40,119 nucleotides of DNA. Source: Methanosaeta sp. PtaB.Bin039. Lineage in GTDB: Archaea; Halobacteriota; Methanosarcinia; Methanotrichales; Methanotrichaceae. Position 1 is the first letter of the stretch. Every line of letters begins with the position of its first letter. Positions 490-39,059 of this stretch are shown here, piece after piece. The notes under the pieces were generated by a model. The model was not told the origin of the DNA. It did no database searches and saw nothing but the letters and a program-made list of their open reading frames with translations. Location of the stretch: contig MVQI01000062.1 of NCBI GenBank assembly GCA_002067795.1, forward strand, positions 1 through 40,119, in the 5' to 3' direction. The translations under genes and the position numbers were made by a program.

Positions 490-574
490 TGCGGGGGATG
501 GGATTCGAACCCACGAACGTCTGCACGACTGGACCCTGAATCCAGCGCCTTTGACCTGGCTTGGCAACCCCCGC
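490..574 (-). tRNA. tRNA-Leu (anticodon CAG)
   Basis: The minus strand folds as a class II tRNA: a 7-bp acceptor stem (GCGGGGG with CCCCCGC), a D-arm closed by GCC/GGC, an anticodon stem CTGGA/TCCAG around the loop TTCAGGG (anticodon CAG), a long variable arm and a T-arm with the loop TTCGAAT. The discriminator base is A at 490 and CCA is not encoded. The long variable arm and the CAG anticodon fit leucine. No intron is needed. An integrase remnant lies just beyond its 3' end, so the 3' half may have been an attachment site. Confidence 0.95.
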
Positions 575-1011: not shown

Positions 1012-1623
1012 CTAGTCTTTGGGAAGTATAAACGAGCAGTCGATCCAGGGATCGGTCAGGTCATAGCCCAGGAACTCCGCAGTCACCTCATCAGAATCGG
1101 AGAGGCTCCATCGGCTTATCCCGTCTGAACCAGAGAGCTGGACCACATGCGATCCGGGCGGAAGATGCACCAAGGCGTGGACCTGGCCGAACTGCCCGGA
1201 AGACTCCAGGCGCAGTGCTTGTCGGTCGCCATCCTTCTGCTCAAGCATACTTCCCAGGGCATAGATCTGCCCGCTGTCGCTCTCGTACTCATGCTCGACG
1301 CCGCCGGGCAGATTGAGGCTGTCGGCAGACGGCAGATATCCGGTGACCAGAACGTTTCCATCTTCCTCTGCCACATATGCGTCAAGGACCATGGTGGCAC
1401 CCAGGACAGAATCGGCGGCTTTTGCCCCGTCCGCCTGTGCCTGAGCAGGCGCCTCCGAGATCAGCAGAAAGGATGACCATAGCATCAGCAATATCACCGC
1501 AAACCAGAACATCTCACCATCCTTCCGGTCTTCTGCTCCTCTCTTCGTTCCAACCGCCTCTTCCTTTGGATTTTGCCTGCAGATGCATCTGCTCAGGGCG
1601 TCGATCCAATGCCAGATCTTCAT
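1012..1623 (-). CDS. Single-pass membrane protein whose ectodomain is related to that of the nearby wHTH regulator
   Basis: The 203-residue product has a charged N-terminus of about 37 residues, one hydrophobic segment (about 39-58) and an outside domain of about 145 residues. The start at 1623 is chosen because an AGGAGGT motif lies four bases upstream; an internal ATG at 1512 would instead give a signal-peptide-like start. Residues about 81-201 align by eye with residues 38-157 of the regulator at 2724-3932. Shared features are T-G-Y, an aspartate/tyrosine-rich turn, G-Q-(I/L)-Y-A-L, a later G-D, a L-P turn, S-x-S-D and G-Y-x-x-x-x-P near the end. It has no DNA-binding domain. It starts 9 bases after the stop of the lipoprotein gene, so the two are probably co-transcribed. 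Function is unknown; it could share a ligand with the regulator or modulate it. Confidence 0.7.
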   Translation of the reverse strand: MKIWHWIDALSRCICRQNPKEEAVGTKRGAEDRKDGEMFWFAVILLMLWSSFLLISEAPAQAQADGAKAADSVLGATMVLDAYVAEEDGNVLVTGYLPSADSLNLPGGVEHEYESDSGQIYALGSMLEQKDGDRQALRLESSGQFGQVHALVHLPPGSHVVQLSGSDGISRWSLSDSDEVTAEFLGYDLTDPWIDCSFILPKD

Positions 1624-1632
1624 GCAGACCTC

Positions 1633-2340
1633 CTAGGTCGTATTCTGGTACTGGCCCGGCCCACCGGAATGGGGCTGCATCTGATGCAATCCCTCCAAAA
1701 GCAGGCTGAACTCTCCGAGATACTGGCCTTCGGTCATGATCAGGACACCCTGAGAAACCACCTGCTCACCCTCAGATATATTGACGATCAGATGCCCGAC
1801 CACCGCATCACCAGACTGCTCCGACCTGGATAGCGGCCCAGCCAGATCCGCCTCGAGAGTGGAGTTGTTCCCGTCTTTGGGCTTCACCTGGATGTTTAGC
1901 AGCCTATAGGCGCTTTCACCCATTAAGAGAACACCGCGATAGGATGCTGAGGCTTCCTCCATCCTTATCAGTTCCCGTATCTCTCCGAGGGTCTTATTGG
2001 AAGAGAGAAGCTCCCGCACACCGGTCACAGCAACTGGCCTGGCTTTCTCCACATGCAGACGAACTGCCACGGCCAGGTCATCCTGAATGGCGAATCCGTC
2101 CAGACCCCGGAACGATACCAGGGCTTTGCCGTCTCCAGGACCGCCGAAGAACCTGCCCTGCATCATGGCTCCGCACATCTTTCCCGGACAGAGGCCATGC
2201 ACCCCTGCCAGATCCAATCCAGGCTCCCCTTGCCAGCCGTCGACGCTTGCGGTCCTTCCCTCATCCGGGCTGCATGATACAACGCCCGACAAGAGAAGCG
2301 CCACCACCACTCCTGCCCATAAGACCCCTATTCTGGACAT
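1633..2340 (-). CDS. Predicted secreted lipoprotein, function unknown
   Basis: Start chosen at the ATG at 2340 because AAGGAGTG stands six bases upstream; a start at 2367 is also open. The 235-residue product begins with a hydrophobic signal segment ending G-V-V-S-C, a lipobox-like site, followed by an acidic, polar mature N-terminus. The mature part has a short C-P-G-K-M-C motif followed by a glycine-rich stretch, a mixed alpha/beta body and a glycine/glutamine-rich C-terminus. I do not recognise a family. It is followed after 9 bases by the ectodomain-only membrane protein and preceded by a palindrome-rich gap, so it may be the first gene of a two-gene unit. An extracytoplasmic binding or sensing role is only inferred from context. 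Confidence 0.65.
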   Translation of the reverse strand: MSRIGVLWAGVVVALLLSGVVSCSPDEGRTASVDGWQGEPGLDLAGVHGLCPGKMCGAMMQGRFFGGPGDGKALVSFRGLDGFAIQDDLAVAVRLHVEKARPVAVTGVRELLSSNKTLGEIRELIRMEEASASYRGVLLMGESAYRLLNIQVKPKDGNNSTLEADLAGPLSRSEQSGDAVVGHLIVNISEGEQVVSQGVLIMTEGQYLGEFSLLLEGLHQMQPHSGGPGQYQNTT

Positions 2341-2723
2341 AATGCACTCCTTCCTCATGTGTTTCATCGATCAGAATGAATAGATTTCTCCCGGAGAAGG
2401 CCGCGATTCCCCACATCCCACCCAGGGAGAAATCTCCTGAGCCACAACCGCCTAATAGTTTACCCTGACGTTTCCCCTACCCGCCTCGAAGCCAAAGACA
2501 GCGAAATCCTCCCGGCCTTGCAGTCTTTTTAAAGAGTGCGGCTCTTGCCGGACCATTCGAAATGTCCGATCCGATCCAGGGCGAACTTGGCCAGTCCCCG
2601 GAATTAGGGAGGAATCCGCCCTCTCTGATACCAATCCTGGACATGAACGATAGAAATATGTTGGACCGAACGTACCCGCGAATTGATGGACGAACCCACC
2701 GATCCGGGATACCAGTAGCCGCT
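2341..2723. other. Intergenic region between regulator and lipoprotein genes
   Basis: This gap of 383 bases has no convincing gene; the minus-strand frame 2452-2817 overlaps the regulator and has a low-quality translation. It contains the palindrome cluster listed separately at 2383-2437, close to the lipoprotein start, and a short T-run near 2524-2530. Promoter elements for the lipoprotein gene are not clear. Confidence 0.4.
2383..2437. promoter_or_regulatory. Operator-like palindrome cluster (TTCTCC/GGAGAA half sites)
   Basis: Two nested symmetries are visible. GATTTCTCCC (2383-2392) is the exact reverse complement of GGGAGAAATC (2425-2434). Each arm is also part of a local palindrome: TTCTCC-C-GGAGAA at 2386-2398 and GGAGA-AA-TCTCC at 2426-2437. 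The cluster lies 43 to 97 bases upstream of the lipoprotein start (2340, minus strand) and downstream of the membrane wHTH regulator. It could be a binding site for a dimeric regulator or an RNA hairpin in the leader. Confidence 0.4.
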
Positions 2724-3932
2724 TTAGGAACGTTCCGTTTCCGAATCCTGCCTTCCTGATTGTTCCGTTCCGGATAGGAACCACGACGACAGCTCTATGA
2801 CGTTGGTGCGTCCCCATTCCTTCTTGGTGACCAGTTTACGCCGCTCAAGAGAGATCACGATTCCGGTCAGGGACGACTTTGGGATCTGAGTCTCGTAGCG
2901 TATATCCGCCTGGGTCATACGCCCTCCGTGCTCCAGAAGCGCAGTCATCACAGCCCTCTCCCTTGCGGTCAGGGTGTTCAGGACAGCGGCCATCTCGCTG
3001 GTGATCGGCACCTTTCCGATGGCCCTGGCAGTCAGGATCTCGGCCTCGATTCTGCCCCGCATCTGGTCTGCTCCAGCATCTTTCTGGTCGATTGCCACGG
3101 ACTCATCCGGACCAGCCGGTTCAGACCCTCCTAGATCCTCCAAATCGGCCTTGGCACTGTGCTGTGGCCCAACATCGCTTATCTGGACATCTGCAGAAAC
3201 CACGGAGTCCTCTGGGGGTTCAGCCTGCTCTTCGTTAGGGGGTGAGAGGGCATCAGGATGACTCGTCTCACGCTGGTCCTGGATGGAGAGGACGGTCCTT
3301 GGCTCGTTGCTATTGTCGATCCTGGTCTCTGCCAACCGCCTTCGCCAGACGAACAATGCCGCTCCCACCAGAAGGGCTGCGATCAACGATGATGGAATCA
3401 GGTAGCTATCGAATGCAGATGGGACTGGCGGCGCTGTCGCAGGCCCGGCCGGCTCAATAGGCTGCCTCCATTCCAGAAGCACGCTTGGCTTGTCCACTCC
3501 ATAGCCTTCAACATCCACCAGGAGAGAATCGCTGGTAGAAGAGACGCTGTACTCCAGGCCTGAGGAGAGGTTGATGCCCCGCACCTTTGCATCAGCCGGC
3601 AGGAACAGAGCAGCATGATACCCCTGATACGATCCCTCTGCAGCCAGATTAAGGCTCCAGTTGTCGCCTGACTTGGAGGTGAGCGAGTTTGTCAGAGCAT
3701 AGAGCTGACCGGTCTGGTTGTCGTAATCGTATTGAGATCCGAGGAGAAACGGCAGCAATGAAGGATCCTCCACATATCCGGTGGCCAGGGCCCGACCTAT
3801 CGGATCCAGGTAGATGTTCAGGACAAGAGAAGTCCCGTCCTGGATTTCTCCTGGCGAGGGATCGGCGCTCTGAGCAAAAGGCCCCAGAACCAGCAAGCCG
3901 ATCAGAACAATTCCCAGAGGATTGGATCTCAA
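2724..3932 (-). CDS. Membrane-anchored winged-helix transcription regulator with N-terminal ectodomain
   Basis: The 402-residue product has an N-terminal signal or anchor (about 6-22), an outside beta-rich domain (about 30-160), a proline linker, one transmembrane segment (about 178-196) ending W-R-R-R, an acidic disordered linker (about 205-300) and a C-terminal winged helix (about 315-387). The last part (LTARERAVMTALLEHGG, then a T-Q-A-D-I helix and S-S-L-T) matches archaeal membrane wHTH proteins of the DUF7345/DUF7343 type as I recall them. It should carry an external signal directly to DNA or be released by proteolysis. The start is a TTG at 3932, with GGAGGAGGGG upstream inside the end of nadE, only four bases after the nadE stop. 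The ectodomain is shared with the protein at 1012-1623. Confidence 0.75.
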   Translation of the reverse strand: MRSNPLGIVLIGLLVLGPFAQSADPSPGEIQDGTSLVLNIYLDPIGRALATGYVEDPSLLPFLLGSQYDYDNQTGQLYALTNSLTSKSGDNWSLNLAAEGSYQGYHAALFLPADAKVRGINLSSGLEYSVSSTSDSLLVDVEGYGVDKPSVLLEWRQPIEPAGPATAPPVPSAFDSYLIPSSLIAALLVGAALFVWRRRLAETRIDNSNEPRTVLSIQDQRETSHPDALSPPNEEQAEPPEDSVVSADVQISDVGPQHSAKADLEDLGGSEPAGPDESVAIDQKDAGADQMRGRIEAEILTARAIGKVPITSEMAAVLNTLTARERAVMTALLEHGGRMTQADIRYETQIPKSSLTGIVISLERRKLVTKKEWGRTNVIELSSWFLSGTEQSGRQDSETERS

Positions 3933-3936
3933 GGAC

Positions 3937-5580
3937 TCATCCCCTCCTCCAGGCGACGGGCATACGCCAACCGCTTCCGAATGCCCGGTCGGTCACCTTG
4001 ATGCCAGGCGCAGCCTGACGCCTCTTGAATTCTGCCGCCTTGACCAGACCAAGAACACGGCTCACCATCTCCCGGTCAAATCCGGCTTTTGCTATCTCTT
4101 CCTCGGTCTGCCGCCCGACAAGATGTCTCTCCAGTATCTCGTCCAGGATCGTGTAAGGAGGCAGGCTGTCCTGGTCGGTCTGCCCAAATCGGAGCTCTGC
4201 AGATGGAGCCTTCTCCAGTATCGCCTCCGGGATAACCGGTCGGCCGGAGCGGGCGTTGAGCCATCGAGCAATCTGGTAGACCATTGTCTTTGGCACATCC
4301 GATATGACAGCAAGCCCGCCTGACATATCCCCGTATATGGTGCAGTAGCCGACAGACAGCTCCGATTTATTTCCTGTTGTGAGCAGGATCAGCCCGAACT
4401 TGTTGGACAATGCCATCAGAAGGTTTCCCCTGATACGGGCCTGGATATTCTCCTCGGTCACATCCTTTGGGCGGCTGGCAAAAGCCGGGTTCAATCCCTG
4501 GTCGAAAGCTTCCATGATATCGGTTATTGGAATTGTCATGGTCCGGATCCCGAGCGACCTTGCCAGCTCAAGCGAATCCACAATCGAGCCCTGGCTTGAG
4601 AACGGGGACGGCATGAGTACGCCAAGCACGTTCTCCGGTCCAAGGGCCTCTGTCGCCACCGCGGCTGTCACTGACGAGTCAACTCCACCCGAAAGGCCCA
4701 GAAGCACACCACGAAATCCGCATTTCCGGACATAGTCCCTCGTGCCAAGGACCAGCGCCCTCCATATCTCCGACTGAGGGGAGAAGTCGTCTTGCGCAAT
4801 TTTGCCAGTAGTTGCAGTCAGGTCCGCCACTGCCACATCCTCCGCAAATGCCGCTGCCCTGGCGATCAGGCTTCCCGATGCCGAGAGCGCACAGGATCGG
4901 CCGTCGAATACCAGATCGTCGTTTCCTCCCACCTGGTTGACGTAGACCACGGCAACGCCATGCTTCTGGGCAATAGATCCGAGCATTGCCTCCCGATGAA
5001 GCTGCTTTCCCACGGTGAAGGGTGAGGCTGACATGTTGATTATAACCTCTGCTCCCTCCCGGACCAAAGACTCGATGGGATCGACATGGTAACGGCGTCT
5101 CTGCCAGAAGTCCCGGTCGTTCCATATGTCCTCGCAGATCGAGACACCCAGGGTCAGTCCGCCGAGCCGGAGGACCTGGGACTGACCAGAAGGCTCGAAG
5201 TAGCGGTCCTCGTCAAAGACATCGTATGTGGGCAGAAGCGTCTTTCGAAAGACCTGCTGGATGGCCCCGTCATTTAGCAGAACCGCGGAGTTGAAGAGGG
5301 GACGCCCCTCCGGCTCCAAATTGGCCTCAGCCATCCCTACAAGCACAGGCGGCCCGCCTTTGATCCGCCCTGCAAGCGAAATGGCCTCTTCCCGGCACCG
5401 GCGAATCAGATCCGGGTCCATCAGCAGGTCCCTGGCCGGATATCCCAGCAGGGCCATCTCTGGAGTTACCCCCAGATCGGCTCCTGCATCTGCTGCCCTG
5501 CCCGCAGCCTCTGCTATCAGCGAGGCATTCCCATGCAGGTCACCCACGGTCGGATTGATCTGAAGAAGTGCGATCTTCAT
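3937..5580 (-). CDS. nadE: Glutamine-dependent NAD+ synthetase
   Basis: The 547-residue enzyme amidates nicotinic acid adenine dinucleotide to NAD+ using ATP and glutamine. Residues 1 to about 260 form a nitrilase-type glutaminase with the catalytic triad E41 (T-P-E-M), K113 (F-R-K-T-L-L-P) and C149 (S-I-C-E-D). The C-terminal half is the synthetase with the ATP pyrophosphatase P-loop SGGVDSS at 297-303. The ATG at 5580 is preferred over a TTG three codons upstream because it begins MKIALLQINPTVGD, as in the family. Many archaea have only the short ammonia-dependent form, so the two-domain type is notable. The membrane wHTH regulator begins four bases after its stop, implying one transcript. 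Confidence 0.95.
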   Translation of the reverse strand: MKIALLQINPTVGDLHGNASLIAEAAGRAADAGADLGVTPEMALLGYPARDLLMDPDLIRRCREEAISLAGRIKGGPPVLVGMAEANLEPEGRPLFNSAVLLNDGAIQQVFRKTLLPTYDVFDEDRYFEPSGQSQVLRLGGLTLGVSICEDIWNDRDFWQRRRYHVDPIESLVREGAEVIINMSASPFTVGKQLHREAMLGSIAQKHGVAVVYVNQVGGNDDLVFDGRSCALSASGSLIARAAAFAEDVAVADLTATTGKIAQDDFSPQSEIWRALVLGTRDYVRKCGFRGVLLGLSGGVDSSVTAAVATEALGPENVLGVLMPSPFSSQGSIVDSLELARSLGIRTMTIPITDIMEAFDQGLNPAFASRPKDVTEENIQARIRGNLLMALSNKFGLILLTTGNKSELSVGYCTIYGDMSGGLAVISDVPKTMVYQIARWLNARSGRPVIPEAILEKAPSAELRFGQTDQDSLPPYTILDEILERHLVGRQTEEEIAKAGFDREMVSRVLGLVKAAEFKRRQAAPGIKVTDRAFGSGWRMPVAWRRG

Positions 5581-5610
5581 GCTGCCCAAGCAATCTAAAG
5601 CCCGGCACAG

Positions 5611-27705: not shown

Positions 27706-30700
27706 CTAGACCGGCGTGCAGTCCGGGCATGCGTAGTCAGGCGTCGGCTCTGAGCGTCCGCAGGCTGAGCAGGGCACCCAATCAGGGGCCTGCAGCGAGG
27801 CAGGGCAGGCCAGGCCGAAGCAGGTGGGCGGATGCCACCCGGATCTGGATGAGGCCACTCTCCCTGTGCCGCCCACCTCAACTCTCGCTACCAGGTCGGC
27901 AGAGGCTGCGTCTGGCCCATCCACCGAGTACACCTCAAGGTGGGCGCTGTTGGCATATATCCCGTCTCCGGGAGCACTTGACAGGTACTCGATCACCCTG
28001 GTCTCACCTGGCTGCAGGTCCACGATGGTCCAGGCAACTTCAGATCCGTGCTGATACGACGGATCGACGGTGGAGCTGACCAGGCTCATTCCGTCAGGCA
28101 GATGATCCTGGATGAAGGCAACCATCGTGTAGTCCTCCCGGTTTGTCAGGCTTATGCGGTAGAGCACCATCGTTGTATTGTTCAACACATTGGCAGTCTT
28201 GCGGGCGTCAAGCTGGGGCGGGCAGCAGGTCAGCCAGCTCAGCTGCACTGCTGAGAAGTTGCTGGCAACCGTCTGGCCGTCTTCGTGAGTCCCAGTTGCG
28301 AGCACCCGGTTGACCAGGTTGTCCTCCTCATCGGTGATGTTCAGTCGCAGCCGTATCTCGACGGCTTCTCCCACTCCCAGGTTTCGCAGCGTCCAGTTGG
28401 CCTGGCCATCCTGGAGCGCGGAAGGCCTGATGGAGGAGTCCACGAACTCAGTTCCAGGCGGGAAGAGGTCCATTACCTGCACAGGTGCGAAGTCCACGTT
28501 TCCGTCGTTCTCAACGAGTATTCTGTAATCTGCCAGGGTGCTACTCGACAGGTCCACATGCACATCTTTTTGGATGTACAGGTGAGGCTGATCATATCTG
28601 GCCACCCCGGTGAACCGGATCTGCCTTTCAATCTCGTACTCGCCCACATATCGATCGTAGGCAACTGCATCCATGCCGGAATGGTTGCGGGCCCTATCAG
28701 ACTTCACCGCCTTGAAGTCTGCCGTTCCTTTGAAGCTGGCCTTCGTGCTCATCTCGTTGAGACCAGGTGCTTTGGTCTCCTTCTGCAGTCTGTCCAGGTA
28801 GTGGAACTCCTCGCCGATATAAGTGCCACCAAAACTGCCGGACCCGGACGGGTTGCTTTTGGACCACATTCCTTCGCTCCATCTGCCGGAGGCGTTAACC
28901 CAGCGGCTCTCGGTGAGCTGATAGCTGGAACGATCATGGGCCAGCTCGATATCCTTGGCAATGTAGCTGGTGCTGGTATCTATCAGCTCTTCCACCTGGT
29001 ATGATCCGCTGCCCGATTCATGGGTACGCTGACTCTCGCCAACGCGCTGATCCACTGAGACCAATCCCTGACCTGATATCGAGCGGTTGGCTACCACGCT
29101 CTCCCCAATGGCGTCCATCTGACGATACACCCGGAAGCTGCCAAGATAATCCTCCCTTGATTCGAGGACAGGCTCTGCCTCCCATCTGGACTTATTGGTG
29201 AGATTTTCCTTGAGCTTCATGGCCCCGAAGTGGGCCATGCCCTCGAAATCAGAATCCACAAGGAGTGTGGTCCCGTTTTCGTCCATCAGCAGGCTGCTCT
29301 CCCGATCGATCCGATTGGAGTAGGTGTACTCCTCGTTGGTGCTGGCTGCCAATCCCAGGTTTTGCGTTCGCTGCTTCTCGATCCATTTGGTGGAGTAGCT
29401 CAGGGATCGATTCTTGGGCAGGTCGAACGATGTGGGATGATAGGTGGCTGATAGGCTCTTGTTCCAGCTTATCGAGCTGTTCTTATTGCGGTAGCTGATC
29501 TGGTCCGAAGAGTCGTAAGAGCCGCTTCCGTGCTCTCTTACGCTGGCGCATGTGGACGGCGGACCCACCTGGACATCTACCTTGGCCGGATTGGCCGATA
29601 CGCTGTCGTACAGGACCCAGGCTGTGCCCTCCTGGCGGTACAGGAAGGCCTGATTGATCAGTATGACCGGCTTGGTGCACAGGTCGTTGTTGACGTTTAC
29701 GAAGCCCTCACCCTGCACGCTCTGATCCATGAGAAATGTGGTGTTGCCGATGATCTCAGCCACCTGGACCAGGATCTCGATCTTCACCGTCTTGTCCTGT
29801 CCAAGAGAGATCACCCAGATATTATCTCCCTGGGTGGGCTGGGGCGAAGCTGATACGAAAGCCACGCCCCGTGGATACTGGTCCACGATCTTGTACGTGC
29901 CGCTTTGTGTGGCATGGAAGGTGATGGTGTAAGTCACCAGGTCGCCAGGGCCAACCACCCTTGGGGTGGCGGTCTTGGTAAAGAGCCCTTCTGCCAGAAG
30001 CAGAGTCGCCTCGTCCTCATCGGTGACTGCGTCGCCTCCCTGCAACGGGAAGCCCACAACGGTGGCAAGATTGACCAGAGGGCTTTTGTCCTCCTGCCGC
30101 ACCAGGTACGGGATCTCGAAGGCCTTCTCCTCGCCCACGTCCAGGTCGAAGGGATCCAGCTCCAGGTCCAGCATGGTGTCCGAGACGATGATATCAACCA
30201 GTGGAACGTTTCCGGTGTTGCGAACGGCGATCCGGTAGGCGACCTCTTCGCCAGGTCTGGCGGACTCTGGCGTTACCGTCTTGTCTATGGAGATGCCGGG
30301 TAAGGGCACCAGGCCCACCTCTACGGTGGCAGAGGCCGAGCCCTCCACCGGCAGACCGTCAGGATTGGTCCCAGTGGCTTTGACCCGGTTCTCCAGGTAT
30401 CTGGACGGGACCAGCAGACCAGGAGTCTTGCGGTACTGCTGGCTGAGAAGCTCACCTGCAATGTCAAGGACCTGCACCAGGGTGTCTCCAGTCTGGTAGT
30501 CTCTGATAGTCAGTGTCTTCTGACCGGCCGCCGGCATATCGTAGTCTATTCGCAGGGACTGCCTTGTGGACTGAGAGGTGTAGAGGTCAGACCTCCCAGC
30601 TGGCCCGTATAGGGAGAGGAGCTGATCACCCTGCGAGGTTCGGGAGAACTCAGACCTGATCAGCGTCTCGTTCTGGTCTAAAATCTCCAATAGCTGCTGG

Positions 30701-33700
30701 CCGTCGGTCATATTGGTGTAGCTGCAGACGGATAAGTTGCCGCCAGCCGCGCTGGGCAGCTCCTGGCACAGGCCGCCGCTTCGGTTAAAGCTGTCCCGCT
30801 CTGCAATCATCCGCTCCAGTCGGAGCTCAAGGACCGTGCGGTTTCTCAGGAGGGCCTGTATGATCTCTTCGCCTGCCAGAGGCTCACCATCAGCTGGCCC
30901 CGAGTCGGTCATCACATGCAACCGGGGCTCTTGCTGGATACGCTCCGGTTCTGCGGACATTGTGTTGAGCGCCAGCTGCAAAGACTCGTCCACCCTGGCA
31001 GAAACGTGGATCACAACAGGGCTGTCGTGCGGCGACAGGCTATCGATCGTCCAGGTGATTGTCTGGCCTGAGATATCCCGGCTGCCCGAGAAGTCATCGC
31101 TCTGATAGATCAAGCCAAGAGGCAGCGTATCCTCCACCACCAGCGGTGAGAGGATCGCTTCGCCGTTATTGGATACGGTTATGGTGAATGTGACTGTATC
31201 TCCGGGATAGGCCACGGTGGGTGAAGCCTCCTTGGTCACGTCGATCGATGCGATCTGAGGCTCCTCCTGCTCCACAATTATCTCGGTGGTAGCCGTACTG
31301 CAGTCAGTTGCATCCGGATCAGCATCCGCGTGGGTCAAGCAGGCGGTATTGGATAAGGCCTCTATCTCCAGATCTTTGATGCTGTATGGGACCTTCACCG
31401 TGATGGTCAGGACAGGTGGCGAAGCTTCTCTCGCCAGATCGCCTATTCTCCAGGAGATCGTTCGGCTATTCGAGTCGTAGCTGAATGTTCCAACCGATGC
31501 GTCTGCCGTATCGTAATCCACGCCGTTTGGCAGGGTATCGGTGACCACTACATCATGGGCATCGGATGGGCCGCTGTTTGTTACTGTCACGGTATATGTC
31601 AATTGAGTTTCGGAATTTACCGGGATTATAACCGGATCTGGGGAGTCGGTCTTTTCCAGATCCACATCCGCAATGCATGGATCGATGTTTATCAGTATTT
31701 CGTCGCTGACCTCCTCAACGCAGGCAATTGCCGGAATGGCGCTCAGCGTCAGGATGACTGAGCCTGAAGCGAGATCTCCGGCTCCCGGGTAGTATGTGGT
31801 GCTTGATGATCCAGGGTTCTGGAAGGATCCGTCGCCGCGAGTCGTCCATGTCGGGGTGGACTGGTCGGAGGCTGTCCCGGCCAGCTGTACCGGGCTGTCG
31901 GAGCATACGGTCTGGTCGGGTCCGGCAGAGACCCAGACGGCTTCATTGGCGTTGTTCACGGTGACCTTCTGGTCGCAGCTTGTCTGATGGCCGGAGCTGT
32001 CGGTCACGGTCCAGGTGATCGTTGTGGTTCCAATCGGGTACGGATCGTTCAATGCCTGGCCATCGCTGCGGACTCCCTGAACCGATCCTATTTTGCAGTT
32101 GTCGTCTGCAGTCGGTTCGGTCACGGTCGCCTGCGCATTGCAAACGCCTTCATCGGTATTAATCTCGATGTCTTCCGGACATGTAAGCGCAGGGTCCTCG
32201 TCGTCTGTGACGGTGACATCGAACGAGCAGCTGACCGAGTTTCCAGCGTTATCGGTGGCAGTGTACGTGACTGTAGTCGTCCCTACAGGAAACGTCTCTG
32301 CTGGCTCGTGGTCTGATGATAGCTCAACCTCCCCGCAGTTGTCAGTGGCTGCAGGCGGTGTCCAGGTAACCGTTGCACTGCACGTTCCTTCAGCCGCGGT
32401 CTGTGTGATATCGTCCGGACATGTCAGCGACGGGTCCTCGTCGTCTGTGACGGTGACGTCAAACGAGCAGCTGACCGAGTTTCCAGCGTTATCGGTGGCA
32501 GTGTACGTGACTGTAGTCGTCCCTACAGGGAACGTCTCTCCTGGCTGGTGATCTGATGAAAGCTCAACCTCCCCGCAGTTGTCAGTGGCTGCAGGCGGTG
32601 TCCAGGTAACCGTTGCACTGCATGTTCCCTCGTCTGCGGTCTGTGTGATATCGTCCGGACATGTAAATGCAGGGTCCTCGTCGTCTGTGACGGTGACATC
32701 AAACGAGCAGCTGACCGAGTTTCCAGCGTCATCGGTGGCAGTGTACGTGACTGTAGTCGTCCCTACCGGAAACGTCTCTCCTGGCTCGTGGTCTGATGAT
32801 AGATCAACCTCCCCGCAGTTGTCAGTGGCTGCAGGCGGTGTCCATGTGACAATCGCACCGCATGTTCCCTCGTCTGCGGTCTGTGTGATATCGTCCGGAC
32901 ATGTCAGCGACGGATTCTCGTCGTCTGTGACGGTGACATCAAACGAGCAGCTGACCGAGTTTCCAGCGTTATCGGTGGCAGTGTACGTGACCGTGGTCGT
33001 CCCTACAGGAAACGTCTCTCCTGGCTCGTGGTCTGATGATAGATCAACCTCCCCGCAGTTGTCAGTGGCTGCAGGCGGTGTCCATGTGACAATCGCACCG
33101 CAAATCCCTGCATTGTTGATCTGAGATATATCAGTTGGACAGCCGGTGATCACAGGAAGGGCATCGTCCCTCACCGGCACGGTTGCGGTTGCAGTGCTGC
33201 TCACCTGATCCGGATAATCGGCCGAACACACATGCCCGGATGCCGTAACTGTATTGGTGACAGGTGAGCAGACATCTATTACAGTAAAGGTACCAGAGTA
33301 TAACCAGGTCTCGCCTGATTGCAGGATCCCGTCGCCATTGTCCCCAGCCGGACCCGAAAGCGTTAGCAGTGTGTCAGTCACAGATAATCCAAACAGCGGG
33401 ATCTGTCCCGGATTTGTGACAGCAACCTGATAAGTTATCACATCATTGAGACTGGCAGGAGAATCTGTTGTATATGGCTCCTGATAGGTCTTGGTAACCG
33501 CTATCTGAGCGCCCGACGGCCTTGTTGGAACGCTATAGCTGGCAGTCACAGGGGTTAAGGAGAAACCTGTAGCTCCTCCACCGGGATAATACTTGGCATT
33601 GGCAGTTGCCGTATTCTTGATCTCCAGGCACACGTCCTGCGGGCGGACCGCGTAGCTGCCAGTATAGGTCCACACCTCACCAACTTCCAGGACTCCAGAT

Positions 33701-34407
33701 GTCCCCGAATCACCCGTGGGTCCTGATAGAGAGCCCAGCAATGGATCGCTGACGGATATGCTCTTGAGAGGCACGTTTCCAGTATTGGTCAGCTTGATCT
33801 GATAATTTATGGTGTCGCCGATGGTGGCCGGATTGCCGGGCCCGTAATTTGTGGAGGTCTTGGTCAGAGACATCTGGGGTCGGTCGATTGGAACATCGTA
33901 GTTCTTGCTGCACTTGGAGTTCTGGTAGTAATCGTTGCAGCCCATGCCAGCGGTATCCGGGCATGTGGTCGTTGGCGTGGTATCCCAGGCCAGAAGATTG
34001 AGGTATACGCTCAATGGCTGGCAGCTCCATGTGAACTGATGGATCGGGATGTAATTATGTCCAGGAAGCACATAACCGGAATAGTAGAGGCTGGTTGGAA
34101 CCTTCTGCTTCACAGTAGTGGATGAGCCGCCGCTTGTGATGGTGGCCCAGAGATAAAGACAATATCTGTTGGTCCCTGTGTTATCCCACACATCCGCCCA
34201 GAGATAGACCGTCGTTGGCGAAGAACAGGCTATACTGTTTATTGGAGTTCCGCTGGCATCCCCAAGCCAAGCCCTTTGAAGCGTGGTATCGCTGGCGACG
34301 CACCCGTATCCGCAATCAGGAAAAGTTTCGCCGGGCTTGCCTGCGGAAGAGATTGTGAATATCAGGGTCAAGAAGATCAAGAGCGTTATGCAGAAGCTTA
34401 TTCGCAT
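27706..34407 (-). CDS. Giant secreted DUF11/HYR surface protein (2233 residues)
   Basis: A signal peptide (about 1-22) is followed by a cysteine-containing N-terminal domain (about 23-175), two DUF11-like beta domains (about 177-415), four near-identical HYR domains (423-742) and a divergent fifth HYR (743 to about 825). Then come an Ig-like segment and more DUF11-type domains (each with D-T-L-P or D-T-M-L and a T-I-T-V or R-N-T-G-N-V-P-L strand). A duplicated serine/tyrosine-rich region (about 1620-1985, each copy starting G-S-G-S-Y) precedes two last DUF11-like domains. The C-terminus lacks a transmembrane anchor but has seven cysteines in the last 40 residues. GGAGGG lies seven bases before the ATG. 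A cell-surface or sheath adhesin role is inferred. Confidence 0.85.
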   Translation of the reverse strand: MRISFCITLLIFLTLIFTISSAGKPGETFPDCGYGCVASDTTLQRAWLGDASGTPINSIACSSPTTVYLWADVWDNTGTNRYCLYLWATITSGGSSTTVKQKVPTSLYYSGYVLPGHNYIPIHQFTWSCQPLSVYLNLLAWDTTPTTTCPDTAGMGCNDYYQNSKCSKNYDVPIDRPQMSLTKTSTNYGPGNPATIGDTINYQIKLTNTGNVPLKSISVSDPLLGSLSGPTGDSGTSGVLEVGEVWTYTGSYAVRPQDVCLEIKNTATANAKYYPGGGATGFSLTPVTASYSVPTRPSGAQIAVTKTYQEPYTTDSPASLNDVITYQVAVTNPGQIPLFGLSVTDTLLTLSGPAGDNGDGILQSGETWLYSGTFTVIDVCSPVTNTVTASGHVCSADYPDQVSSTATATVPVRDDALPVITGCPTDISQINNAGICGAIVTWTPPAATDNCGEVDLSSDHEPGETFPVGTTTVTYTATDNAGNSVSCSFDVTVTDDENPSLTCPDDITQTADEGTCGAIVTWTPPAATDNCGEVDLSSDHEPGETFPVGTTTVTYTATDDAGNSVSCSFDVTVTDDEDPAFTCPDDITQTADEGTCSATVTWTPPAATDNCGEVELSSDHQPGETFPVGTTTVTYTATDNAGNSVSCSFDVTVTDDEDPSLTCPDDITQTAAEGTCSATVTWTPPAATDNCGEVELSSDHEPAETFPVGTTTVTYTATDNAGNSVSCSFDVTVTDDEDPALTCPEDIEINTDEGVCNAQATVTEPTADDNCKIGSVQGVRSDGQALNDPYPIGTTTITWTVTDSSGHQTSCDQKVTVNNANEAVWVSAGPDQTVCSDSPVQLAGTASDQSTPTWTTRGDGSFQNPGSSSTTYYPGAGDLASGSVILTLSAIPAIACVEEVSDEILINIDPCIADVDLEKTDSPDPVIIPVNSETQLTYTVTVTNSGPSDAHDVVVTDTLPNGVDYDTADASVGTFSYDSNSRTISWRIGDLAREASPPVLTITVKVPYSIKDLEIEALSNTACLTHADADPDATDCSTATTEIIVEQEEPQIASIDVTKEASPTVAYPGDTVTFTITVSNNGEAILSPLVVEDTLPLGLIYQSDDFSGSRDISGQTITWTIDSLSPHDSPVVIHVSARVDESLQLALNTMSAEPERIQQEPRLHVMTDSGPADGEPLAGEEIIQALLRNRTVLELRLERMIAERDSFNRSGGLCQELPSAAGGNLSVCSYTNMTDGQQLLEILDQNETLIRSEFSRTSQGDQLLSLYGPAGRSDLYTSQSTRQSLRIDYDMPAAGQKTLTIRDYQTGDTLVQVLDIAGELLSQQYRKTPGLLVPSRYLENRVKATGTNPDGLPVEGSASATVEVGLVPLPGISIDKTVTPESARPGEEVAYRIAVRNTGNVPLVDIIVSDTMLDLELDPFDLDVGEEKAFEIPYLVRQEDKSPLVNLATVVGFPLQGGDAVTDEDEATLLLAEGLFTKTATPRVVGPGDLVTYTITFHATQSGTYKIVDQYPRGVAFVSASPQPTQGDNIWVISLGQDKTVKIEILVQVAEIIGNTTFLMDQSVQGEGFVNVNNDLCTKPVILINQAFLYRQEGTAWVLYDSVSANPAKVDVQVGPPSTCASVREHGSGSYDSSDQISYRNKNSSISWNKSLSATYHPTSFDLPKNRSLSYSTKWIEKQRTQNLGLAASTNEEYTYSNRIDRESSLLMDENGTTLLVDSDFEGMAHFGAMKLKENLTNKSRWEAEPVLESREDYLGSFRVYRQMDAIGESVVANRSISGQGLVSVDQRVGESQRTHESGSGSYQVEELIDTSTSYIAKDIELAHDRSSYQLTESRWVNASGRWSEGMWSKSNPSGSGSFGGTYIGEEFHYLDRLQKETKAPGLNEMSTKASFKGTADFKAVKSDRARNHSGMDAVAYDRYVGEYEIERQIRFTGVARYDQPHLYIQKDVHVDLSSSTLADYRILVENDGNVDFAPVQVMDLFPPGTEFVDSSIRPSALQDGQANWTLRNLGVGEAVEIRLRLNITDEEDNLVNRVLATGTHEDGQTVASNFSAVQLSWLTCCPPQLDARKTANVLNNTTMVLYRISLTNREDYTMVAFIQDHLPDGMSLVSSTVDPSYQHGSEVAWTIVDLQPGETRVIEYLSSAPGDGIYANSAHLEVYSVDGPDAASADLVARVEVGGTGRVASSRSGWHPPTCFGLACPASLQAPDWVPCSACGRSEPTPDYACPDCTPV
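32182..33141 (-). repeat. Four tandem 240-bp repeats encoding HYR domains
   Basis: The DNA repeats with an exact period of 240 bases: equivalent positions fall at 33141, 32901, 32661 and 32421 on the minus strand. Each unit encodes 80 residues starting C-P-(D/T)-D-I and containing four cysteines, a T-W-T-P-P-A-A-T-D-N-C-G-E-V motif and F-P-V-G-T-T-T-V-T-Y. Units differ at only a few positions, while the fifth HYR unit (starting at 32181) is clearly diverged at both DNA and protein level. Confidence 0.95.
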
Positions 34408-37586: not shown

Positions 37587-37637
37587 AGTTTGGAGACATT
37601 TGATGAACAAAGACAAAAATCGTTAGGTGTAATTATC

Positions 37638-39059
37638 ATGAATCACGTGATGAGGATTTGCCTGATTGCATCGGTTATGGTCATGGTATGCAGCCTGTCC
37701 TGCAGCGCCATAAAATCGTCCTTTGGAGTGGATAATCAGGAAGGTTCCGCATCTGCTACCCATCGGTTTTCCATCAGCTCGGCGGGAGTCGTTGATGGGG
37801 ACATATCTCTGAGCAGCATGGGCGTCTCAAGCCGGCTGTCGGTGGATGGGGACGGTGAGGTCTTCGCCTCTGAGTCTGTATCCGGAAGCGGAGAAGGTGG
37901 ACTTCATGTCCTCGGATCAGGCGTCCAGGGCAGTGGCCAGACCAGATTATACAGCAGCAGCTGGGCCACGGCAGGGGCCTCCGGGTCCAGCTCTCAGATA
38001 TCAGGAGCCGGAAACGTGGTGTCGTTCTCCCAGGGGACTGGGCCATGTGGCGAGTCAGGCCAGAGGGCCACGGTATACGGTGGAGTCCTATCCTCTCAAA
38101 GCTCAATGGAGAACGGGGATGAGCTGTTGGCCTCGCGGAGTATGCAGATGAGCGGGGAGGCTGTGGAATTGGAGGCCATCACATCTTCGGATGGCAGCAC
38201 CAGGCTTGTATCAGGCGGCGTTGACGGCGGTGCGTCCCTGAGCCTCGATACCCGCAGCCTGGTCGCTCCAGGAGGCGGCATGACGGTCAGGGCTGCTGTG
38301 GACGGGCTGGATGTGCTGGATGAATACCTGGGAGATCCAGGTTCGGAGGACATGGCGGTCACGGCCAGCGGCCTGTTGCTGGGTGGAGAGGGTCTTGGCT
38401 CGTACAGGATGTCTGCGCTCAACCTGAAGTCTCCGTATTCAGCACGCAGGCCTGTGAAATCCTCTACCCAGTACCTGGGCGGATCATCAAGTTCGTACAT
38501 CTTGACAGGATGGCGTTTCAATACCTTAAATCCCCAGATCAGGATGAGGCTGATAAATAACCGTTACCTGGCTGCGGAAGGCCTGAATGCAGATCAGGTC
38601 AGAGGGGCAATAACCAGGGCGGCCGAGACCTGGGACGCTGCCAGCAGACAGAACCTCTTTGCCGACTCAAGCATGGTCGGATTCGATGCCACGAGGGTAT
38701 CCGGAAACTATGACGGCGTCAATGCCATCGGATGGGCTGCCTTCCCATACACATCCAAATCGGTACTGGCTAGCGCCAAGACGTGGTACTCCCTCTCCAA
38801 GGTGGGCGGCTACTATACAGTGAGGGAGTTCGATATAAAGTTCAACAACTATCACTCCTGGTCCACCAGCGGTGCCAGTGGAAGGATAGATGTGGAGTCA
38901 GTAGTTCTGCACGAGCTGGGGCACCCCCTCGGTCTGGGTGACATCTACAACAGCGCGCTTTACAGGAGGGACCCGTCCCAGGTGATGAACAGCTATTCCG
39001 GAATCAAGAGAACGCTTGGAAATGGCGACAGGTCTGCCTTGCTAAAGCTGTACGGGTAA
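37638..39059 (+). CDS. Secreted matrixin-like zinc metalloprotease
   Basis: The 473-residue product has a signal peptide (about 1-24, ending S-L-S-C-S-A), a long serine/glycine-rich beta-structured region (about 30-290) and a C-terminal metzincin protease domain (about 293-473). The zinc motif is H425-E-L-G-H429-x5-D435, an HExxHxxGxxD variant, followed by a Met-turn in Q-V-M-N-S-Y. The domain begins G-W-R-F-N and contains a W-D helix as in matrixins. ATG 37638 is preferred over TTG 37590 because AGGTG lies eight bases upstream. It would act outside the cell, perhaps on surface proteins; its substrate is unknown. Confidence 0.85.
   Translation: MNHVMRICLIASVMVMVCSLSCSAIKSSFGVDNQEGSASATHRFSISSAGVVDGDISLSSMGVSSRLSVDGDGEVFASESVSGSGEGGLHVLGSGVQGSGQTRLYSSSWATAGASGSSSQISGAGNVVSFSQGTGPCGESGQRATVYGGVLSSQSSMENGDELLASRSMQMSGEAVELEAITSSDGSTRLVSGGVDGGASLSLDTRSLVAPGGGMTVRAAVDGLDVLDEYLGDPGSEDMAVTASGLLLGGEGLGSYRMSALNLKSPYSARRPVKSSTQYLGGSSSSYILTGWRFNTLNPQIRMRLINNRYLAAEGLNADQVRGAITRAAETWDAASRQNLFADSSMVGFDATRVSGNYDGVNAIGWAAFPYTSKSVLASAKTWYSLSKVGGYYTVREFDIKFNNYHSWSTSGASGRIDVESVVLHELGHPLGLGDIYNSALYRRDPSQVMNSYSGIKRTLGNGDRSALLKLYG

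Follow-up and report, generated by a model that had tools for sequence, protein, structure and literature searches.

A membrane-tethered regulator, a secreted neighbor protein, and a GTTC promoter element that look like an undescribed cell-surface control system in methane-making and methane-oxidizing archaea

We analyzed one stretch of DNA from Methanosaeta sp. PtaB.Bin039, the whole 40-kb contig (G000:C62; 40,119 nucleotides, here called the window) of a Methanotrichaceae genome bin. It carries a cassette of three genes, encoding a membrane-anchored regulator with a winged helix-turn-helix (wHTH) DNA-binding domain, a secreted middle protein, and a 203-residue protein that has a copy of the regulator's outer domain (ectodomain) and no wHTH. 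All three open reading frames (ORFs) were confirmed on the minus strand, at 2724-3932, 1633-2367, and 1012-1623, respectively. Together with a matching promoter element that precedes genes for exported proteins, this cassette looks like an undescribed form of cell-surface control. We read it as a one-component regulator tethered in the membrane that has a secreted co-component and a candidate envelope regulon, and we hold the case for this reading to be evenly balanced. Much of the world's methane is made or consumed by these archaea, which are uncultured or grow slowly, and how they sense and regulate their cell surface is little known; having the regulator together with candidates for its operator and regulon turns the matter into a directly testable question.

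Which genes of the cassette belong together? A preliminary description of this DNA, made from the sequence alone, had placed the regulator and its ectodomain-only paralogue at the core, with a lipoprotein gene between them. Homology and gene order bear out that cassette as real, and its genes are kept together across the genomes surveyed. The invariant pair is instead the regulator and the middle secreted protein, with the paralogue tied to the middle gene. Among 50 Methanotrichaceae genomes, the ectodomain profile found matches in all 50 and the middle-protein profile in 46, and the middle gene lay downstream on the same strand for 42 of the 55 regulator copies. The ectodomain-only copy was found in Methanotrichaceae only, in 23 of the 50 genomes; the middle gene stood directly upstream of the copy in 22 of these 23 cases, even where the two lie on a different contig from the regulator. 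A scan of named GTDB genomes (73 loci) placed the regulator and the middle gene next to each other in Methanotrichaceae, Methanophagales (ANME-1; often 85 base pairs [bp] apart), and Methanoperedens (ANME-2d), and did so for most of the ANME-1 and Methanoperedens loci. When 247 genomes spread over the phylum were sampled, 31 had the regulator and 34, among them all of these 31, had the middle protein, while the 213 genomes without the middle gene were all without the regulator too. The three genomes with a middle gene and no regulator come from the ANME-1 family, one by a marginal match; the sampled Methanosarcinaceae-like families had neither protein, and no such system was found in Methanosarcina. 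The cassette is larger and older than first supposed.

A promoter element at 2645-2671, between the regulator and middle genes, was missed by the preliminary description, as was its candidate regulon. Comparison of the stretches that follow the regulator stop codon revealed the same element just behind that codon in ANME-1, Methanoperedens, and Methanothrix. It consists of GTTC, 15 bases with a TATA-like run, and TATCGTTC (GTTC-N15-TATCGTTC), with the two GTTC copies 23 bp apart and often an extra GTTC directly before it. The window holds one exact copy; shuffled windows averaged 0.12 even with one mismatch allowed. A pattern search for regulon sites returned ∼127 matches in the 50 Methanotrichaceae genomes versus ∼17 for the reversed pattern, and 4 versus 0 in the window's own genome. 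The spacer was TATA-like in 71 of 101 distinct Methanotrichaceae matches and in 20 of 25 from ANME-1, versus 3 of 53 in families of the phylum sample that lack the regulator. A spacer model trained on ANME-1 gave Methanotrichaceae matches a median score of 4.0 versus -6.5 in genomes without the regulator (P = 7e-16), and in the loci covered outside the window cassette only 2 of 42 promoter-like sites fell inside ORFs of at least 200 residues versus 57% of random positions (P = 5e-13), both P values to be read with the relatedness of the genomes in mind.

By eye, the gene next after ∼45 of 48 sites encodes an exported, membrane, or ABC-transport protein. In the window's own genome, the element precedes genes in this cassette and at loci on contigs C53 and C60. 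Those on C53 encode an ABC ATPase, a COG1361-like protein (assigned by reading; no Pfam match), and a MacB/FtsX permease, and they adjoin an S-layer protein gene (Pfam S-layer, E = 1e-191); on C60, a 108-residue membrane protein is followed 920 bp further by an 84-residue protein with a signal peptide and two [4Fe-4S] motifs. In relatives, the genes behind the element encode ABC ATPases, exported ferredoxins, PEGA-like secreted proteins, repeat proteins rich in Met and Cys (MMGxDGKxxxCGC), NMTL-repeat proteins, and further members of the middle-protein family, the last two kinds seen, for example, on G003:C129 and G008:C18. In Methanoperedens loci, a MacB-type ABC transporter stands before or after the cassette itself, and most Methanothrix cassettes hold, between the regulator and the middle gene, an extra secreted protein of ∼20-residue repeats (NMTLxEIxxLRxxK) that is missing in the window. 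Because Met/Cys-rich products and ferredoxins lie behind the element, our guess is that the signal would be soft-metal or redox stress at the envelope.

The two C60 genes (G000:C60; locus L167, 4159-4413 and 4858-5184, minus strand) encode an exported two-cluster ferredoxin and a small three-helix membrane protein, each behind its own GTTC copy within a duplicated stretch; export is uncommon for a ferredoxin and could have a bearing on extracellular electron transfer. Secreted Met/Cys-rich repeats of the form MMGQDGKQxxCGCEKS, matching no Pfam family, stand behind the GTTC element in L206 (418-1080), L186 (near 3603, minus strand), and L184. In the regulator-middle interval of Methanothrix (L110, 9381-10088; L104, 3315-4166; and others), each NMTLxEIxxLRxxKxxEL repeat carries an N-glycosylation sequon.

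Could the middle and ectodomain-only proteins be mere outputs of the regulon, that is, structural or protective surface proteins with no part in sensing? The presence of middle-family copies and repeat proteins elsewhere under the same element would suit this explanation. We consider it rather unlikely because the regulator and the middle gene strictly co-occur and adjoin in three lineages, one of them ANME-1, whose regulon seems to contain little beyond the middle gene; moreover, a copy of the sensor domain behind a mere output gene would be needless. Somewhat less probable still is that the GTTC element marks a class of promoters under a different factor and lies behind the regulator merely because the next gene belongs to that class. 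Such a class would account for Methanocrinis, where the element stands before repeat- and middle-protein copies elsewhere and not behind the regulator gene, whereas the phyletic distribution of the element equals that of the regulator and both were lost together in genome G007. There (L207, G007:C86), the regulator and middle genes are broken by frameshifts and stops, the adjacent nadE is intact, and no promoter-like GTTC element is left in the genome. G007 appears to be a natural loss, or knockout, of the system, with some chance of an assembly error.

Several observations weigh against a tethered regulator that acts with a secreted co-component through this element. The cassette of Methanocrinis/M. 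harundinacea is without the element (the copy before repeat-protein and middle-protein genes elsewhere is retained), one Methanothrix genus has it mostly with one mismatch, and genome G006 has the regulator with neither a middle gene nor a GTTC site. Another factor of the same distribution as the regulator could bind the element, and the site counts include related genomes and are not independent. The structural matches of both outer proteins are weak as well: those of the middle protein to barrels reach E = 0.018 at best, with TM scores of 0.34 to 0.37, and the best PDB match of the short-ectodomain model, ribophorin I/Ost1 (6ezn_A; E = 3.8e-4, TM score of 0.59 over the query), does not suffice to assign a function.

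The outer domains of the regulator and the 203-residue protein are homologous (31% identity over 120 residues; BLASTP, E = 4e-15). Searching the window's own genome with the regulator recovered the short protein (E = 6e-13), which matched the ectodomain family profile at E = 2.9e-36, that profile having been built with the protein included. The motif order that the preliminary description saw in both ectodomains proved to be the family consensus (GxALVTGY, SxYxY, GQLYAL, GD, LP, SNDSL, GYDVxDP). Homology, profile, and co-occurrence results together rule out chance similarity or an annotation artifact of a high-GC genome, to which we give next to no credence. Neither the short nor the middle protein matched a Pfam or NCBIfam family even at E = 1, and a PDB sequence search with the ectodomain returned nothing usable. 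An AlphaFold2 model of the short protein (94 sequences) is all-beta, with 11 strands. A shared fold is consistent with these results in that the two ectodomains are members of a single sequence family and the short copy is confidently all-beta; the model covers that copy alone. Hydropathy gave the short protein a single hydrophobic segment, near its N terminus, and in the window species the protein may be membrane anchored rather than cleaved because 37 residues precede this segment. Most other copies are 148 to 186 residues long; a spurious start of the 203-residue ORF was ruled out by an AGGAGGT just before its ATG at 1623.

In the ectodomain tree, the ectodomain-only copies cluster apart from the regulators, with 1 or 2 changes versus the 19.5 expected with shuffled labels. 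This clustering rules out repeated recent duplication of the ectodomain and suggests a later duplication with one or two old origins, probably a single one; the exact number is unsure because the branch of the copy in the window is very long. Long branches of the ectodomain-only copies, as well as their absence from about half of the Methanotrichaceae genomes, would fit a copy with a function of its own, such as a ligand carrier or a surface adhesin, linked to the cassette by co-expression only. We regard this as improbable, about as much so as the mere-output explanation, given that the middle gene precedes the copy in 22 of 23 cases, also on contigs apart from the regulator.

The middle protein has an N-terminal hydrophobic segment and a conserved part of ∼140 residues, for which AlphaFold predicted eight strands with two helices between strands 2 and 3. 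Foldseek matched it to fHbp barrels, nitrobindin, nitrophorin, GID4, and Cap15, all barrel folds, at E = 0.018 or worse; a calycin-like barrel is likely but unproven. A PDB sequence search gave one weak match over a short stretch (8vd6). The label "lipoprotein" fits the window species, in which a lipobox-like Cys is present (VVSC, residue 32), and does not carry over to the family: a lipobox-like match was found in 3 of 68 members, one of these outside any signal peptide. Judged by their sequences, members of this family are secreted or membrane anchored and not lipoproteins in general.

The regulator has two hydrophobic segments, beginning at residues 5 and 178 (hydropathy), and the ANME-1 and Methanoperedens examples show the same pattern. 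Its wHTH matches Pfam DUF7343 (E = 1.6e-13; 50.7 bits versus a gathering threshold of 27.6), as did all 12 of the 12 regulators examined. The window's own genome encodes a second full-length regulator (G000:C49:5143-6375; locus L090) that is 39% identical and has no middle or ectodomain-only gene; an imperfect GTTC element lies ∼1 kb upstream of it. A weak third match (C53:38059) was rejected, being only transmembrane-segment similarity to a MacB-operon protein. Elsewhere, three regulators of the family stand in a row, none with a middle gene (L081; G015:C1:2942000-2958000), and in some ANME-1 loci (L149, L150, L151) two regulators share a one-base overlap, with a single middle gene behind them.

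How might these parts work together? The outer beta domain would sense conditions in the pseudoperiplasm or envelope, either by itself or by way of the secreted middle protein, a possible co-component or feedback partner of the regulator. On its flexible tether, the wHTH would bind the GTTC repeats on either side of the TATA box and thereby control a small set of exported-protein genes: the middle protein, MacB-type ABC transporters, exported [4Fe-4S] ferredoxins, and secreted repeat proteins. In Methanotrichaceae, a duplicated sensor domain would have lost the tether and the DNA-binding part and joined the transcription unit behind the middle gene. The preliminary description had suggested heterodimer formation, ligand sharing, or decoy control for this copy; any of these may apply, and feedback appears to be the most economical. 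We infer that the copy is most likely a feedback competitor, because active expression of the regulon would also yield the copy, which should bind the sensor's partner or ligand without producing an output. In its fullest form, the proposal is a three-part archaeal module in which a tethered regulator, a secreted barrel partner, and a threshold-setting sensor-only copy act through a lineage-wide operator around the TATA box of genes for surface, efflux, and exported redox proteins, both in aceticlastic methanogens and in the methane-oxidizing ANME-1 and ANME-2d. This version is tentative, and we think it somewhat more apt to fail than to hold.

Table 1. Features of the cassette and its surroundings in the window
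Feature	Coordinates	Strand	Evidence or remark
Regulator, membrane-anchored one-component (402 residues, TTG start)	2724..3932	-	Ectodomain profile match in 50/50 Methanotrichaceae genomes
Regulator architecture: signal/anchor, ectodomain, one transmembrane helix, ∼110-residue hydrophilic tether, C-terminal wHTH	2724..3932	-	
Regulator ectodomain, residues 33-160, no Pfam family	3453..3836	-	
Regulator transmembrane segment, residues 178-196	3345..3401	-	Hydropathy
Regulator wHTH (DUF7343, PF24034), residues 323-381, MarR/IclR-like	2790..2966	-	
Candidate promoter/operator element GTTCGGTCCAACATATTTCTATCGTTC, between regulator and middle gene	2645..2671	-	Direct GTTC repeats 23 bp apart around a TATA-like stretch
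Middle gene, secreted protein (244 residues), lipobox-like Cys in window species; invariant regulator partner	1633..2367	-	
Conserved domain of middle protein	1690..2100	-	AlphaFold: 8 strands and 2 inserted helices; calycin/lipocalin-like barrel suspected
AGGAGGT ribosome-binding site of ectodomain-only gene, overlaps middle-gene end	1628..1634	-	
Ectodomain-only paralogue (203 residues): N-terminal extension, one hydrophobic segment (1456-1512), ectodomain; no second transmembrane segment, no wHTH	1012..1623	-	
Paralogue ectodomain, residues 77-200, homologous to the regulator's	1024..1395	-	pLDDT 90, pTM 0.83
nadE (NAD+ synthetase, assigned by sequence reading), 4 bp upstream of regulator	3937..5589	-	

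The nadE gene is a conserved neighbor in 24 of 39 Methanotrichaceae loci and is probably outside the system. An Rfam scan near the cassette found a single tRNA gene only (490-574, minus strand); it lies beside a contig-end ORF (129-395) that resembles the N terminus of a tyrosine recombinase, possibly the edge of an integrated element. Farther along the window, reading by eye picked out a secreted surface protein of 2,233 residues with HYR-like and DUF11-like repeats (27706-34407) and a secreted protein with a HELGHPLGL zinc-protease motif (37590-39059).

The kinds of component described here are known; as far as we found in the open-license literature, their combination is undescribed, and open-license papers held nothing relevant on DUF7343, COG2512, or the motif. 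DUF7343 (PF24034), of which the regulator wHTH is a member, leaves the ectodomain, partner, and operator outside the Pfam family. Transmembrane transcription regulators (TTRs) of bacteria and archaea are, according to a survey, widespread with few characterized (PMC10269533). Like the regulator here, they combine a DNA-binding domain and a transmembrane segment in one single-pass protein with an outer sensor (PMC10269533). By its predicted anatomy, DUF7343 plus a transmembrane segment, the regulator is a TTR. It differs in having an outer domain without a Pfam family and in being accompanied by a secreted partner and a predicted operator, as well as by a sensor-only paralogue in one family; none of this appears in the parts of the survey that we consulted (PMC10269533).

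In the archaeal system described here, the wHTH is C-terminal and the partner family has no detected sequence relation to those of ToxR/ToxS-type pairs. The DNA-binding wHTH of ToxR, in contrast, is at the N terminus. ToxR/ToxS, VtrA/VtrC, and TcpP/TcpH nevertheless share with our cassette a membrane-tethered regulator beside an outer partner, and the survey describes several bacterial TTRs with adjacent outer partners, often lipocalin-like, that form co-component systems (PMC10269533). The lipocalin-like nature of many such partners can be set beside the eight predicted strands, possibly a barrel, of the middle protein (PMC10269533). By analogy, the regulator and the middle protein would fit the co-component working principle, and the adjacency typical of such pairs was found for 42 of 55 Methanotrichaceae regulators; the pair is a candidate member of that class.

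To our knowledge, the archaeal regulators ArnR and ArnR1 have no linked secreted partner or ectodomain paralogue. These proteins of Sulfolobus acidocaldarius are, like the regulator here, membrane-bound one-component regulators, whereas their known targets are archaellum and pilus genes (PMC6396743). Neither a kinase nor a response regulator belongs to the present system, which sets it apart from CpxA/CpxP. In systems of that type, a secreted member of the regulon gives feedback on the sensor, and we likewise propose that an exported regulon product may act back on the sensor here. If true, archaea would have their own equivalent of the bacterial co-component systems, and the cassette would show a sensor domain that was duplicated by itself and kept next to the partner.

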